64,000 bases of DNA, from contig DAHUXH010000008.1 of the NCBI GenBank assembly GCA_027307235.1, positions 1 to 64,000 on the forward strand, given 5' to 3'. Origin of the DNA: Vulcanimicrobiota bacterium (GTDB lineage Bacteria > Vulcanimicrobiota > Vulcanimicrobiia > Vulcanimicrobiales > Vulcanimicrobiaceae). The position numbers were made by a program, and so were the translations under genes. The notes beneath the pieces were generated by a model. The model was not told the origin of the DNA. It made no database searches and saw only the letters and a list, made by a program, of their open reading frames with translations. Shown here piece after piece: positions 23,374 through 29,983 of the stretch (its first letter is position 1; every line of letters begins with the position of its first letter).

Positions 23374-24465
23374 ATGAAAACTATGGAAAAAACACGTGTC
23401 GTTGCCGCGATGAGCGGCGGAGTCGACTCCGCCGTCGCGGCAGGTCTCCTGGTCGAAGCCGGATTTGACGTCGTCGGCGTGACCATGCGCATGTACGCGC
23501 AAACGCGCGCACCGCACGCCAAAAGTTGCTGCGGCATCGACGATTTCGACGATGCGCGCCGCACCGCGTCGGTGCTCGGGATTCCGCATTACGTCCTCGA
23601 TTTCGAAGAGACGTTTCGAAAGAACGTGATTGAACGCTTCGTCGACGACTATGTGTCGGGGCGCACGCCCAACCCGTGCGTCTCGTGCAATAACTTCGTG
23701 AAGCTCGGATCGCTGCGTAAGTACGCCGACGCCGCCGGTGCCGAATTCGTTGCCACCGGACATTACGCGCGCATCGAGCATCGCGACGACGGGCCGCATC
23801 TGTTCCGCAATCCGCATGCCAAAGATCAGGCTTACGCTCTCGCACAGCTCACGCCCGAGCAACTCGCAAAACTCTTGTTGCCGCTCGGCGAACTCGACAA
23901 AGCCGCAACCCGCGAACATGCTCGCCGTCTGAATCTCCCCGTCCATGACAAAACGGAGTCGCAGGACATCTGCTTCGTGGAAGGCGGCGACTACCGCGAC
24001 GTGCTCGCGCGCGCACGCGAAGGCATCGCGCATGAAGGAGCGGTGGTGACGACGGCGGGCAATCGCATCGGCACGCATGGCGGGATCATCAACTACACCG
24101 TCGGCCAGCGCGCGAAACTTCCCTCGACCGGGGACGGGCCGCGTTACGTCACCCGCATCGATGCATCGACCAACACCATCGTGATCGGGCGCGAGGACGA
24201 GCTACTCGCGGACGGTCTGATCGCCGATGAAGTGAACCTCATCCGTCCCGAGAGATGGACAAGCGACACCGACGTGCTTGCGATGGTTCGCTACCGCGCG
24301 ACGCCGGCGCGGGCGAAAGCCGTGCTGCTCGCCGACGGAACGCTCTCGTTGCGCTTCGCGCAACCGCAGCGAGCGATCGCGCCGGGGCAACTCGTCGCGT
24401 TTTTCGACACCAGCGACAATGAGGTGCTCGGCGCCGCAACCATTCGCTCCGCGACCGCTTCTTAG
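23374..24465 (+). CDS. mnmA: tRNA-specific 2-thiouridylase
   Basis: MnmA thiolates U34 of tRNA-Lys, -Glu and -Gln. The 363-aa protein has the PP-loop ([13 protein letters not shown]), a first catalytic Cys in [15 protein letters not shown], a second in [16 protein letters not shown], the GQRAKL segment, and the C-terminal beta-barrel domain. An ATG at 23383 would remove three residues. It is divergent from rodZ. Downstream (53 bp) lies the binding protein/DsrE/cytochrome operon; sulfur relay is a tempting theme but MnmA is cytosolic and housekeeping. Confidence 0.97.
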
Positions 24466-24518
24466 AACCGATCGCCTGTTCGGTTGACTTATCGAGCGAT
24501 GGGTGCCTACGATTGCGC

Positions 24519-25418
24519 ATGGGACGCTCGCTGCTCGCGTTGCTCGCCATTCTTGCGCAGACCGGGGCGCTGCCGCCGCCCCCGGTCAACGTCACGGTTC
24601 CTTGCGTCGATGACGCGATGGATCTCCACGGAAATCCGGACAACGCCGGCCTGGTGATCTTCGCTGCCGGGAATCAGTGGTTCGTCATGCCCGCCCTGCT
24701 CGCGGCCTTCCAGCGTGCGCACCCGGAAGTGCGTTCGATCTTCTACGAGACGTTGCCGCCCGGTGTCCTCGCCCAGCAGATGGAAAGCGGAGCGATTCAA
24801 GTCGGCGGGCTCATCCTGCGCGTTCATCCGGACGTGTATCTTTCCGGGAAGAGCCGCATGGAAACGATGCAGAAGGCCGGACTCGTCGGAACGCCCGTCG
24901 TCTACGCGAGCAATGCGCTCGCGATTATGGTACGTGCCGGAAACCCCAAACATGTCGCATCGCTCGCCGATCTCGGGCGACCCGACGTGCGCGTTGCCAT
25001 GCCGAATCCGAAAACCGAAGGCATCGCGCGCCAAATCGAGCTTGCGTATCGAAAATCCGGCGGCAGCGCGCTCGACACCGCGATCATGCGCATCAAACTA
25101 CAGCGTGGAACGACGCTGTTGACCGCGATTCATCATCGACAGACGCCGATGTGGATTCTCAACGGCAGCGCCGATGCTGGTCCGGTGTGGCTCTCCGAAG
25201 CGCTCTATCAGGAACGCGTGCACAGCGGCGTCGTGATGGTGCGGATACCGGCAGCCCAAAACGTTGAAGCGACCTACCTCGCCGCTGCGGTCACATCGTC
25301 TGCGCACCCGAGGGCGGCGCAGGCATTCGTCGAATTTTCGCGGACGGCGGCGGCGCAATCGGTGTACCGGTCATACGGCTTCACACTCCCGACGTCACAG
25401 GAGGCATCCCATCCATGA
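24519..25418 (+). CDS. Periplasmic substrate-binding protein (ModA/PBP2-like)
   Basis: The 299-aa protein begins with a hydrophobic signal segment (MGRSLLALLAILAQTGALPP). It has the fold pattern of type 2 periplasmic binding proteins of the molybdate/tungstate or extracellular solute-binding group: VIFAAGNQWFVMPALLAAFQ, then YASNALAIMVRAGNPKHV, LGRPDVRVAMPNPKTEGI, and a C-terminal AAAVTSSAHPRAAQAFVEF typical of ModA-like proteins. No ABC permease or ATPase is adjacent. Instead its stop overlaps the DsrE-like gene by 4 bp, so it may act as a binding or carrier component for the cytochrome rather than an importer. A TTG at 24513 is an alternative start. Confidence 0.75.
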   Translation: MGRSLLALLAILAQTGALPPPPVNVTVPCVDDAMDLHGNPDNAGLVIFAAGNQWFVMPALLAAFQRAHPEVRSIFYETLPPGVLAQQMESGAIQVGGLILRVHPDVYLSGKSRMETMQKAGLVGTPVVYASNALAIMVRAGNPKHVASLADLGRPDVRVAMPNPKTEGIARQIELAYRKSGGSALDTAIMRIKLQRGTTLLTAIHHRQTPMWILNGSADAGPVWLSEALYQERVHSGVVMVRIPAAQNVEATYLAAAVTSSAHPRAAQAFVEFSRTAAAQSVYRSYGFTLPTSQEASHP

Positions 25419-26125
25419 ATCGCACGAAATTCTTGACGGCATCGGCGACGCTGGTCGCGGCGGGCGCCGCAGTTCCCGTCTATGCGCAAAATGTTCCGGG
25501 CGGAACAAACCTGGTCGAACGTCGAGCAAACTTCGATGAAGCTGCCTTCGCGAGGCTGCTGGGACGGCCGGCGGACATCCGCCAACTCTTTGAAGCGGTC
25601 TCTTTCAAGCCCGGTATGTTCGCCAACGTGAAGAACTCGCTCAACGGGTTGCACTTCGGATTCGGATACGCGCCGGACCGCATCGCCGTCGCGATCGCGG
25701 GACACGGACCATCGGCCGCGTTCGGCTATAACGACTACATCTGGCAGAAATACAAGATCGGAGAATTCTTCGGCGTGAAGGACGACGCGGGAAACACGGT
25801 CGCGAGCAACACCTGGCTCAAGGCCAAGAGCACATTCGATCCGGCGGCCGATCCCGACGACGACACCGGCATGTATCAAGACACTTCGATTGAAACGCTG
25901 CAAAAGCGCGGCGTCGTGATGCTGACCTGTCACACCGCGGTTGAAGAACAATCGCGCGCGTTGGTCAGGAGGGGGCTGGCTCCCGCCGGAATGACCGGAA
26001 CGGACGTCGCCAGCGACATTCTCAGCCACTTGATCCCCGGTTCGGTCGTTGTGCCGTCGATGGTTGGAACGGTTGCGGTGCTGCAGGCGAAATACGCGTA
26101 CACGTATGTGGCGCTCACGTTTTAG
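25415..26125 (+). CDS. Exported DsrE-like protein
   Basis: The 236-aa protein begins with a signal peptide (MNRTKFLTASATLVAAGAAV...YAQ). The body resembles the DsrE/DsrF/TusD fold: a NVKNSLNGLHFGFG helix, DRIAVAIAGHGPSAAFGYND, and RGVVMLTCHTAVEEQSRAL at the place where cytosolic DsrE proteins carry a sulfur-binding Cys; here the Cys is in L-T-C-H. DsrE-like proteins carry persulfide sulfur. The exported location is unusual and suggests periplasmic handling of sulfur intermediates with the downstream cytochrome. Its start overlaps the binding-protein gene and its 3' end overlaps the cytochrome gene by 20 bp. The family assignment is from pattern only. Confidence 0.6.
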   Translation: MNRTKFLTASATLVAAGAAVPVYAQNVPGGTNLVERRANFDEAAFARLLGRPADIRQLFEAVSFKPGMFANVKNSLNGLHFGFGYAPDRIAVAIAGHGPSAAFGYNDYIWQKYKIGEFFGVKDDAGNTVASNTWLKAKSTFDPAADPDDDTGMYQDTSIETLQKRGVVMLTCHTAVEEQSRALVRRGLAPAGMTGTDVASDILSHLIPGSVVVPSMVGTVAVLQAKYAYTYVALTF

Positions 26126-26921
26126 CCTTGTCGCGCTGATGCTGGCTGCATCCGTCGCCGGATGCAGCACCCCGGGTCGCGCGCCACAAGGGACCGCCAA
26201 CGCAAGCGCCGTCTTCGATCCGCAGGCACTCCCCAGCGGACCGCTCGGCGCCTCCATCGCGCTCGGGCACGACGTGATCGTGAATACGCAACGGCGTCTG
26301 CCGCGCAACGTACGCGCCGACATGTCGTGTGCCGCCTGTCACGTCGCTGCGGGGACCGTTGCGCGCGGCGGTTCGTTCATCGGCACGTACGCGCGTTTTC
26401 CGCAGTGGAACCCGCGCGCAAAACGCGTCATCACGCTGCAAGACCGCTTGGCGGAATGTTTCCTATACAGCATGAACGGCACGCCGCCCGCCTACACGAG
26501 CGCCGAGATGATCGGCATGGTCGCCTATATCGCGTACCTCTCGCGCGGCGTTTCCAGCGGAGCGCCGCAAGCGAAAAGCGACAGCTTCCTGGTGGCGCTG
26601 CCGCCGTCGCCGCCGAACGTCGTTCGCGGCCGAATGCTCTACGCGCAAAAGTGTTCGTTATGCCACCAAGCCACCGGCGGCGGCGTGCACGGATCGTTCC
26701 CGCCGCTGTGGGGTCCGCGTTCGTTCAACACCGGAGCCGGGATGGCGAACATCGCAAAGATGACCGGCTTCGTTCGCTACAACATGCCGCAGAACGCGCC
26801 GGGGACGCTATCGATCCAAGACGCCTACGACATCTCCGGTTGGGTGCTCACGCACAGCCGGCCGGTCTTTCAGAAGCAGCGCTCGATCTCGCAACCGCCC
26901 CAACCGGCCGGATTCTTCTAA
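26106..26921 (+). CDS. TsdA-like dihaem cytochrome c (thiosulfate dehydrogenase family), lipoprotein
   Basis: The 271-aa protein starts with a lipoprotein signal (LMLAASVAGC, Cys20). It has two c-haem sites, CAACH (75-79) and CSLCH (183-187). Several stretches resemble thiosulfate dehydrogenase TsdA: LGHDVIVNTQRRLP, DRLAECFLYSMNG, FPPLWGPRSFNTGAGM and GFVRYNMPQNAPG. In TsdA the haem 1 iron has a Cys axial ligand; Cys118 in DRLAECF lies in the corresponding conserved segment. Met227 could be a haem 2 ligand. TsdA joins two thiosulfates to tetrathionate or runs in reverse. The start at 26106 lies within the upstream gene's end and directly before the signal peptide. Substrate is inferred only; it is convergent with mqnC. 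Confidence 0.82.
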   Translation: MWRSRFSLVALMLAASVAGCSTPGRAPQGTANASAVFDPQALPSGPLGASIALGHDVIVNTQRRLPRNVRADMSCAACHVAAGTVARGGSFIGTYARFPQWNPRAKRVITLQDRLAECFLYSMNGTPPAYTSAEMIGMVAYIAYLSRGVSSGAPQAKSDSFLVALPPSPPNVVRGRMLYAQKCSLCHQATGGGVHGSFPPLWGPRSFNTGAGMANIAKMTGFVRYNMPQNAPGTLSIQDAYDISGWVLTHSRPVFQKQRSISQPPQPAGFF

Positions 26922-26932
26922 AGAACGTTCTC

Positions 26933-28021
26933 CTACGACGCAGTGGCGAGCGCGATGTCGGTGCGCAGGTTCCAGTACGTGTCGCGAATGACCGGGGTGA
27001 ACCCGGCTCTGATGACGAGTTGTTCGAGGTCGCGGCGCGTGGCTTCGTTGGTCGAACCGGCGTCATGCACGACTTGCTCTTCGATGATCGTGCCGCCCAT
27101 GTCGTCGCAGCCGTAGAAGAGCGCCATCTGCCCCATTTTCACGCCCGGCGTCAGCCATGACGCTTGGAGATGCGGGAAGTTGTCCATGTACAAACGCGAC
27201 ACGGCGAGCACGCGCAGATACTCCAGGCCGGTCGCCTCGCGGCCGCGCAGCGGCGTCTTGTACGGCACGTAGTACCACGGAATGAACGCCGTGAAGCCAT
27301 TGGTCTCGTCCTGCAATTCGCGCAAGACATGCATGTGCTCGATGCGCTCTTCGTCGGTTTCGATCGAGCCGAACATCATCGTCGCTGTCGTCGGCATGCC
27401 GAGCAGTTGCGCCTCGCGCATCACGTCGAGCCACTCTTCGGGCTTGACCTTGCGCGCCGAGATGCGCTTGCGCACGCGCTCGACGAGAATCTCCGCGCCG
27501 GCGCCGGGCAGCGATTTCATTCCCGAGGCTTTGAGGCGCGTCAACACGTCGCGCACCGGCAGATTTTCGATTTTCGCAAGTCCGACGACTTCCGAGACCG
27601 ACAGCGAGTGAATGTCCACATTGGGATACTCGCGTCCGACCCGCTCGAAGAGCTTCTCAAACCAGTCGATCCCCAACTCGGGGTTGACGCCGCCTTGAAT
27701 CATGATCTGGGTCGCGCCTTGATCGGCGGCGTACTTCACGCGTTCCAGTACCGCGTCGTGCGACATGGTGTAGCCTTGCGCGTGCTTCTCCGGACGGAAG
27801 AACGCACAGAACGTGCAGTGGACGTTGCAGACGTTGGTGTAGTTGATCGTTGTGTCGATCACATAGGTGACGACGTTGCCCGGATGCAACTGCATGCGGC
27901 GCGCATGCGCCGCCATGCCGAGTTCGTGCAGATCGCCTTCCTTGTAAAGACGAACGCCCTCGTCGAAGGTGAGGCGGCCGCCGGTGGCGGCTTTGTCCAG
28001 CAAACTAGCGAGAGACGACAC
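26933..28021 (-). CDS. mqnC: Cyclic dehypoxanthinyl futalosine synthase
   Basis: MqnC is the radical SAM cyclase of the futalosine menaquinone pathway. The GTG at 28021, six bases after GGAGG, gives 362 aa and is preferred over the longer open frame to 28096, which is only overlap with mqnA. The radical SAM cluster is CNVHCTFC (Cys65, 69, 72), followed by MIQGGVNPELGIDW and ALFYGCDDMGGTIIEE. The start overlaps the mqnA stop by 17 bp. Operon order is mqnE-mqnA-mqnC. The presence of this pathway means menaquinone is the likely quinone for the cytochrome encoded next door. Confidence 0.94.
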   Translation of the reverse strand: MSSLASLLDKAATGGRLTFDEGVRLYKEGDLHELGMAAHARRMQLHPGNVVTYVIDTTINYTNVCNVHCTFCAFFRPEKHAQGYTMSHDAVLERVKYAADQGATQIMIQGGVNPELGIDWFEKLFERVGREYPNVDIHSLSVSEVVGLAKIENLPVRDVLTRLKASGMKSLPGAGAEILVERVRKRISARKVKPEEWLDVMREAQLLGMPTTATMMFGSIETDEERIEHMHVLRELQDETNGFTAFIPWYYVPYKTPLRGREATGLEYLRVLAVSRLYMDNFPHLQASWLTPGVKMGQMALFYGCDDMGGTIIEEQVVHDAGSTNEATRRDLEQLVIRAGFTPVIRDTYWNLRTDIALATAS

Positions 28022-28838
28022 CGATGACCTCCGGAAGCGCGGACGGCAGCGACGTGATCGCACCGATCGCGAGCAGTTCACGGCAGTAGGCGGCAAAACC
28101 GCTCTGCGCCGCCGCGTGAAACGCGAAGTTCAACTTCGCGAAGTAGTTTTCGTAGAATCCCGGGCTGCGCACGGCGACGCGCTGCGCGGCCGCAACGACC
28201 TGGTCGATGTGCGCGCGTCCCCACGTGTAGGCGTCGGTCAGCGCATGCATGCAGGCGCGCACGGCTTCGGGATCGCGTTCGTAGGCATCGCGCCGCGCGA
28301 CCCACACGGCGAAGACCGTCTGCTCGTGTGTCCACTCATGCCAGAGCGATCCCAAATCGTAGACGTTCTCTTCGGGGAGCTGCGCGATCGCGTCGATGGC
28401 CGTGTCGCCGATCAGCAGCGCGGGCAACCCGTGACGCGCGCGTTCGAGCGGCTGCGCGTCCTCCACGTATCGCGGCCGTACGCCGTACCGGCGTTCGAGC
28501 AACACGCGCAGCAGGTTGCGCCCTGTCGCCGATTCACCGGTAACAAAAACGTCCGCTCCGTCGAGCAGCGAGAGCGGCGTCTGCGAGGCGAGCACGACGG
28601 AGATCACCTCACTGCGCGCTCCGATGCACAGATCGGGCAGCAGCACGAGTTGCTCGGCGTTGGCCGCATACGCGAAGGCGCTCATTGGACTGACGTCCAG
28701 CTCGCCCGCGAGCAGCATGTCGTTGAGCCGCGTCGGCACGTCGGCATGCAGCACGCCCGGAAATGTGACCGCGCCGGCGTCGAACGCCGCATAGATCGGC
28801 AGATCGTTGGTGTATCGAATCCGCCCGCAGCGCAGCAT
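28005..28838 (-). CDS. mqnA: Chorismate dehydratase
   Basis: MqnA converts chorismate to 3-enolpyruvylbenzoate, the first step of the futalosine route. The 277-aa protein has the periplasmic-binding-protein-like fold of the family: GRIRYTNDLPIYAAFD at the N-terminus, PTRLNDMLLAGELDVSPMSA, and ALLIGDTAID in the middle. The ATG at 28838 shares one base with the mqnE stop (TGATG), and its stop overlaps the mqnC start. This gives tight translational coupling. Confidence 0.93.
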   Translation of the reverse strand: MLRCGRIRYTNDLPIYAAFDAGAVTFPGVLHADVPTRLNDMLLAGELDVSPMSAFAYAANAEQLVLLPDLCIGARSEVISVVLASQTPLSLLDGADVFVTGESATGRNLLRVLLERRYGVRPRYVEDAQPLERARHGLPALLIGDTAIDAIAQLPEENVYDLGSLWHEWTHEQTVFAVWVARRDAYERDPEAVRACMHALTDAYTWGRAHIDQVVAAAQRVAVRSPGFYENYFAKLNFAFHAAAQSGFAAYCRELLAIGAITSLPSALPEVIGVVSR

Positions 28839-29983
28839 CAGACGGAAACCAGTTCCGGCTGCTGCGACGGCGGCGCCCAGTCGTGCGGAAATTCGTCGTA
28901 CGTTGAGTTACGCCGCACCGGAACGTACCCGGCGTCTTCGATCAAGCGGCGAAATTCGCGATCGTCGACATACTGCCCGGACTGTGTACCCGCCGAATGA
29001 TAGATCATCTCTTCGTCGGTCGAGCCGTGCGTGCCGTCCATGTCGTCGGCTCCGAAGTGCAACGCAACCTGACACACTTTGATACCTTGAATCATCCAGT
29101 ACGCCTTGACGTGATCGAAGTTGTCGAGCATCAGCCGCGCGACCGCGAACGTCCGCAAATCATCCAGGCCGGACGTCCATCCGCAGTCGTTGAGTTCATT
29201 GCCGTCGGGATGGAACGCAAGCGGGATGAAGGCATTGAATCCCGGCGAGCGCTGCTGCGACTCGCGCAGCCGAAGCATGTGGTCGACGCGGTCTTCTAGC
29301 GATTCGATGTGCCCGTAGAGCATCGTCGCGTTGCTCGCGACGCCTTGACGGTGCAGCTCTTCGTGAATCGAAAGCCAGTTGGCGGCGTTGACCTTGTTCG
29401 GACAGATCTTCTTGCGGGTCTCTTCCGCGAAAATCTCCGCGCCGCCGCCGTTGACGTTGTCCAAACCAGCGCTCTTCAGTTCGCGCACGATCTGCTCGAA
29501 CGACATGCGATGGCGTTTGGCCATGTACTCGATCTCGGCTGCGGTGAACAGCGAGAGTTGCACGTGCGGCAAGCGCTCCTTGAAGCGGCGCATGAGCGGC
29601 AGCCAGTAGTCCAGCGAGAGCTGTCGCGGATCGTGGCCGCCCACGATGTGGATTTGGTTGAAGTTCGCGCCCGTTTCAAGCGCCTTCGCGAACACCTGAT
29701 CCGCGGTCATGCGAAAGACGTTGCCGGCTTCCTTGAACTCATCGACCGCGAACGAGCAAAATTTGCAGTGCGCATAGCAGACGTTGGTCGAGTTGATGTA
29801 GCGGTTGAGAACGTAGAAGACCTTCTTGCCGCTCTTGCGCTCTTTCTGCTTGCGCGCCATCCGGCCGAGGTTGTGGATGTCGGGCGTGCGGTACAGGGTC
29901 AAGCCGTCGTCGAGTGACAGCGGTATGCCCTCGTCGACTTTGTGTTCGATGGCGCGCAGCGCCGGGTCCATCGTGTACAACAC
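28838..29983 (-). CDS. mqnE: Aminofutalosine synthase
   Basis: MqnE is a radical SAM enzyme that joins 3-enolpyruvylbenzoate to SAM-derived adenosine to give 6-amino-6-deoxyfutalosine. The 381-aa protein has the CYAHCKFC cluster (Cys69, 73, 76), QIHIVGGHDPRQLSLDYW, GGGAEIFAEETRKKI and QVALHFGADDMDGTHG, which distinguish MqnE from MqnC. The GTG at 29983 follows AGGAAT; an ATG at 29971 would remove four residues. It is first in mqnE-mqnA-mqnC. Confidence 0.95.
   Translation of the reverse strand: MLYTMDPALRAIEHKVDEGIPLSLDDGLTLYRTPDIHNLGRMARKQKERKSGKKVFYVLNRYINSTNVCYAHCKFCSFAVDEFKEAGNVFRMTADQVFAKALETGANFNQIHIVGGHDPRQLSLDYWLPLMRRFKERLPHVQLSLFTAAEIEYMAKRHRMSFEQIVRELKSAGLDNVNGGGAEIFAEETRKKICPNKVNAANWLSIHEELHRQGVASNATMLYGHIESLEDRVDHMLRLRESQQRSPGFNAFIPLAFHPDGNELNDCGWTSGLDDLRTFAVARLMLDNFDHVKAYWMIQGIKVCQVALHFGADDMDGTHGSTDEEMIYHSAGTQSGQYVDDREFRRLIEDAGYVPVRRNSTYDEFPHDWAPPSQQPELVSV

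Follow-up and report, generated by a model that had tools for sequence, protein, structure and literature searches.

A TSD-related protein encoded with a TsdA-family cytochrome and a binding protein: a putative periplasmic thiosulfate-oxidising module

In Acidithiobacillus, the genes for a thiosulfate dehydrogenase (TSD) and a solute-binding protein (SBP) form an sbp–tsd pair, which has already been published in the company of doxDA (PMC6335251; PMC2754497). The tsd–sbp–doxDA clusters of Acidithiobacillus ferrooxidans are AFE_0042–0044 and AFE_0049–0050 (Kikumoto 2013, as reviewed in PMC6335251). According to the same review, the AFE_0042 enzyme makes tetrathionate, with no cofactor requirement reported there, and neither ubiquinone nor horse cytochrome c serves as electron acceptor for the purified A. 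ferrooxidans TSD (PMC6335251). A dedicated acceptor for TSD, such as TsdA or DoxDA, is therefore plausible.

Here we describe a bacterial locus in which an sbp–tsd pair is followed by a gene for a TsdA-family cytochrome. The window, which is the whole 64,000-nucleotide stretch analysed (contig DAHUXH010000008.1 of an uncultured Vulcanimicrobiota bacterium, here placed among the Eremiobacterota), had been predicted to hold three overlapping plus-strand genes at 24519–26921, and an ORF check confirmed them exactly. sbp (24519–25418) encodes a periplasmic solute-binding protein with the sulfate/molybdate-binding fold, tsd (25415–26125) an exported protein of DsrE-like character, a relative of the non-haem thiosulfate dehydrogenase AFE_0042, and tsdA (26106–26921) a dihaem c-type cytochrome of the TsdA family, predicted to be a lipoprotein. 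The overlaps are 4 bp between sbp and tsd and 20 bp between tsd and tsdA; the tsdA start is the ATG at 26106, and the longer TTG-initiated frame from 26049 is unnecessary. The GC content of the trio (0.60–0.65) matches that of the window (0.62). Upstream, mnmA (23374–24465, same strand) ends 53 bp before the trio, and read-through from it is possible; a single promoter-like site at 24484–24513, upstream of sbp, is at chance level. Downstream, convergent menaquinone genes of the CofH/MqnC and MqnA/D types (26933–29983) begin 11 bp past tsdA.

The middle protein matched no Pfam family even at an E-value of 1, PF02635 (DsrE/DsrF-like) included. It did match the NCBIfam family NF052225, 'thiosulfate dehydrogenase', with an E-value of 1.1e-32 and 113.4 bits over profile positions 65–256 of 259. 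Since this score lies well below the equivalog cut-off of 300 bits, the window TSD is a relative of the family rather than a confirmed member. NF052225 is matched by all 49 aligned TSD homologues, and the plasmid-borne TSDs of Bosea, Bradyrhizobium, Methylobacterium and Gluconobacter, which are about 30% identical to the window TSD, exceed the cut-off. We took NF052225 to represent AFE_0042 of A. ferrooxidans on the grounds of the family name and the common sbp/doxDA context, without a direct alignment; on that footing, the window TSD is probably a distant relative of AFE_0042, a thiosulfate dehydrogenase that has no cofactor and belongs to a different family from TsdA. The only cysteine of the window TSD, Cys172, is invariant in 109 of 109 sequences. 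The signal peptide (MNRTKFL) lacks a twin arginine and so departs from the Tat signal that characterizes AFE_0042-type TSDs. Twin-arginine signals occur in 34 of 37 TSDs of the acidobacterial group (L100–L136), as against 2 of 43 from Eremiobacterota (L057–L098), and a change of export route within the TSD family is probable from these signal sequences. Eremiobacterota also encode several paralogous TSD-like families (L029–L034, L040, L043–L046, L049–L056), about 25–46% identical and with the conserved cysteine, that have no adjoining sbp or tsdA.

The original prediction had called this protein DsrE-like, and this holds at the level of remote homology. A profile comparison by hhalign with short periplasmic DsrE proteins (PF02635) gave a probability of 95% and an E-value of 2.9e-8 with the catalytic cysteines aligned, whereas the SBP, used as a control against the same profile, gave 0.9%. 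In a fold search with the AlphaFold model of TSD (pLDDT 90), the top PDB match was the DsrE protein 3pnx, a weak one (E 0.12, probability 0.57, TM 0.36/0.48), further matches had probabilities of at most 0.15, and sequence searches of the PDB with the protein or its profile returned no match. Alignment rows from the plasmid collection were left out of the structure predictions. Given the weakness of the fold match, the assignment of TSD as a remote DsrE homologue is supported mainly by the profile comparison. As a description, however, DsrE is incomplete, and 'relative of AFE_0042-type TSD' describes the protein better.

By its sequence the cytochrome is a true homologue of TsdA: it matches the Pfam family SoxA-TsdA_cyt-c (6.9e-17) and the solved Allochromatium TsdA (AvTsdA; PDB 4wqc, 3.1e-50). 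Its haem-binding motifs, CAACH (C75-C78-H79) and CSLCH (C183-C186-H187), lie in a SoxA-TsdA and a cytochrome c domain, and both are invariant across 73 homologues. The cysteine ligation predicted for haem 1 is borne out by Cys118, the cysteine of an AECF motif, which aligns with the ligand cysteine of AvTsdA and is kept in 72 of 72 homologues; the haem 2 ligand, Met227, is kept in 70 of 70. The position of AvTsdA Lys208 is occupied by Asn226, with Asn in 59 of 70 homologues, as it is in the Campylobacter jejuni enzyme, a reduction-biased tetrathionate reductase. The lipobox of the window protein (VAGC, residues 17–20) lies at 26154–26165 on the plus strand, and a lipobox-like motif is found in 28 of 38 TsdA proteins from Eremiobacterota.

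The first protein had been described as a ModA-like binding protein lacking an ABC transporter. In agreement with this, it matches SBP_bac_11 (1.1e-45), its AF2 model (pLDDT 90) resembles Lmo1041, the sulfate-binding protein SubI and ModA, and no ABC transporter genes were seen beside sbp. Its score against the ModA family TIGR01256 (43.2 bits) is under the 62.5-bit cut-off. This score, together with the lack of listed transporter genes next to sbp on the annotated plasmids, led us to reject a plain ModA serving molybdate transport. The plasmid-borne relatives split into a group with 42–51% identity, which mostly adjoins tsd or DsrE genes where plasmid loci were inspected, and ModA proteins with less than 30%. 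The window SBP thus appears to belong to a TSD-linked clade, which was drawn without the Acidithiobacillus SBP in the comparison.

Co-occurrence in relatives had been set beforehand as the test of the trio, and the tsd–tsdA part of it came through clearly. Among 149 genomes of the phylum, tsdA lies within 1.5 kb of 46 of 51 close tsd genes; 45 of these 46 pairs share a strand, their intergenic distances ranging from –17 to 82 bp, and in three of the five exceptions tsdA sits on another contig. At the genome level, co-occurrence of tsd and tsdA is 47/49 as against 18/100 (149 genomes, uncorrected for phylogeny). The association is beyond chance. The evolutionary distances of TSD and TsdA are correlated (r 0.87), in part through shared phylogeny. 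The binding protein did not hold to the same extent: sbp lies within 1.5 kb of 20 of the 51 tsd genes in the 149 genomes and is present in 19 of 43 Eremiobacterota loci. Being absent from over half of these, it is inessential to the tsd–tsdA pair.

The named loci of the relatives belong to Candidatus Eremiobacterota, where the fullest arrangement is a divergent lysR followed by sbp–tsd–tsdA–yeiH, yeiH encoding a putative sulfate exporter; some clades have neither sbp, lysR nor yeiH. The host genome keeps the trio alone and contains no yeiH. Since the trio of the relatives has other neighbours, it has probably been relocated in the host lineage. Members of the same class show the row MBL-rhodanese (persulfide dioxygenase-like), tsd, TauE, rhodanese and tsdA. 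In the Acidobacteriota group, the order tsd–sbp–tsdA is found in 28 of 37 loci, several others being cut by contig ends, and the cultured Acidipila rosea (DSM 103428) carries it. A Bosea plasmid has tsdBA–tsd–sbp with a canonical TSD and a full TsdBA fusion (E 4e-127 against 5lo9), plus a blh dioxygenase and an FAD oxidoreductase. In Gluconobacter and Acetobacter the order is tsd–sbp–doxD(A), with DoxDA in the place of TsdA.

In Hymenobacter and Spirosoma, genes for a TsdA-type cytochrome, a DsrE protein and an SBP are consecutive, with a sulfate exporter gene nearby. In the set of loci L141 (3162–5789), L142 (3195–5764), L143 and L144, the Bacteroidota have a short periplasmic DsrE and an SBP of the same clade downstream of the TsdA-type cytochrome; in Paraburkholderia and Komagataeibacter, a DsrE–SBP pair lies near genes for c-type cytochromes and oxidases. 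TSD appears to have been replaced by DsrE in these loci. Putative sulfate exporters of the YeiH type (PF03601) recur beside the modules in three phyla (L018:9751–10725 and homologues; L141:1945–3057; L145:2012–3127), which suggests a role in sulfur-anion transport.

The proposal that electrons pass to menaquinone had to be abandoned. The menaquinone genes beside the trio are particular to the host genome, while the trio of the relatives lies between lysR and yeiH or among other genes. Menaquinone, moreover, has a potential of about –75 mV. The thiosulfate/tetrathionate couple lies far above this, at +198 mV according to the abstract of PMC9562282, so that oxidation of thiosulfate by menaquinone would be uphill and the electrons would reach cytochrome c instead. 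The host genome encodes three COX1-type (haem-copper) oxidases as well as cytochrome c assembly functions and additional c-type cytochromes. A search of this genome for DoxD gave a weak match that fits DoxX as well and is unlinked to the trio, and no SoxB was found above the cut-off.

The predicted sulfur role, in thiosulfate or tetrathionate metabolism, is supported, and none of the three outcomes that the original prediction had named as refuting it was observed. With moderate confidence, we propose that the three genes encode a thiosulfate-oxidising module for electron transfer in the periplasm, in which TsdA takes the place of DoxDA as the redox partner of sbp–tsd, best read as a tetrathionate-forming system that would feed c-type cytochromes and oxidases. 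Homology, conserved residues and gene linkage are established; the substrates, the direction and the protein contacts are our inference. The SBP would capture thiosulfate, and TSD would react with it through Cys172, which probably holds a Cys-S-thiosulfonate, by analogy with DsrE3A; alternatively, TSD may pair two thiosulfates into tetrathionate. TsdA, with haem 1 ligated by Cys118 and haem 2 by Met227 according to the alignment, would take up two electrons, as expected from known TsdA enzymes, and pass them through soluble or bound c-type cytochromes to a haem-copper oxidase. The neighbouring redox protein of the sbp–tsd unit is DoxDA elsewhere, and TsdA here and in many other bacteria. The production of tetrathionate by AFE_0042 in organisms encoding no TsdA counts against this reading (PMC6335251). 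So do the low NF052225 score of the window TSD and its identity of about 30% to canonical TSDs, the frequent lack of sbp in Eremiobacterota, and Asn226. More tentatively, and at somewhat less than even odds, sbp–tsd may be a widespread substrate-handling unit with an exchangeable partner, either the quinone reductase DoxDA or the cytochrome TsdA or TsdBA, in which a short periplasmic DsrE replaces TSD in Bacteroidota; TSD would then be a cysteine-based thiosulfate carrier or activator and no stand-alone dehydrogenase.

The direction of the reaction bears on an unlikely alternative, a tetrathionate reductase, in which TsdA would run in reverse on quinol-pool electrons delivered via cytochromes while SBP and TSD serve to collect or split tetrathionate. 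Asn226 points this way, as do the reactivity of DsrE3A proteins with tetrathionate and not thiosulfate (PMC4175335) and the nearby menaquinone genes, since menaquinol could power the reduction. However, the Asn/Lys exchange does not by itself set the direction, the menaquinone linkage is unconserved, the host has several haem-copper oxidases, and related loci hold oxidative sulfur and respiration genes (PDO, SQR-like, cbb3 oxidase). It is likewise improbable that TSD and TsdA are two independent thiosulfate dehydrogenases with different pH or substrate ranges and no hand-over: each family is reported to form tetrathionate alone (PMC6335251), but complementary roles are suggested by the tight co-inheritance, by the distance correlation, itself partly shared phylogeny, and by the way DoxDA and TsdA alternate in one position. 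We give little credence to a SoxYZ-like carrier, in which TsdA would attach thiosulfate to TSD at Cys172, much as SoxAX loads SoxYZ, and what is bound there would be processed further without release of tetrathionate, because, despite the membership of TsdA in the SoxA family, the capacity of DsrE proteins to carry Cys-S-thiosulfonate (PMC4175335) and the missing SoxB, the A. ferrooxidans TSD releases tetrathionate (PMC6335251) and no SoxB-like hydrolase was seen linked to the trio in the phylum.

In the loci described here, the TSD and TsdA kinds of enzyme are linked in one operon in at least three phyla. This linkage points to a candidate electron partner, open to experiment, for TSD, an acid-tolerant and long-puzzling thiosulfate enzyme, and offers a role for the previously unexplained SBP. 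Eremiobacterota and Acidobacteriota would also join the likely thiosulfate oxidisers, which Sox-based surveys would overlook.

The original prediction knew of no named system of this composition. This does not stand for the sbp–tsd pair, published with doxDA, but the TsdA-partnered form, with an electron partner alternating between DoxDA and TsdA, seems to be undescribed in the literature searched; no paper naming a TSD–TsdA operon was found there, although an earlier mention is possible because key TsdA and TSD papers fell outside the search. Like SoxAX–SoxYZ, the module combines a SoxA-family cysteine-ligated haem with a cysteine carrier protein, if TSD acts as the carrier we propose, but TSD is DsrE-like rather than a SoxYZ protein, and the host genome has no SoxB above the cut-off. 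With DsrE3A of Metallosphaera cuprina, TSD shares the DsrE-type cysteine, which in DsrE3A can carry thiosulfonate, but DsrE3A, a smaller protein (17.6 kDa) that stays unexported, works with TusA (PMC4175335). The cytochrome resembles the TsdA and TsdBA proteins of Allochromatium vinosum and C. jejuni and structure 5lo9 in being a dihaem c-type protein with a Cys-ligated haem 1 and a Met at haem 2, and resembles C. jejuni TsdA in its Asn at the Lys208 position. Unlike known TsdA, alone or with TsdB, it is a predicted lipoprotein linked genetically to TSD and SBP. The A. ferrooxidans cluster shares with the window a periplasmic TSD-family protein adjoining an SBP of the sulfate/molybdate-binding type, in a thiosulfate context. 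There, however, the partners are the thiosulfate:quinone oxidoreductase DoxDA and a rhodanese in genomes with no TsdA, whereas here a distant TSD is joined to TsdA.
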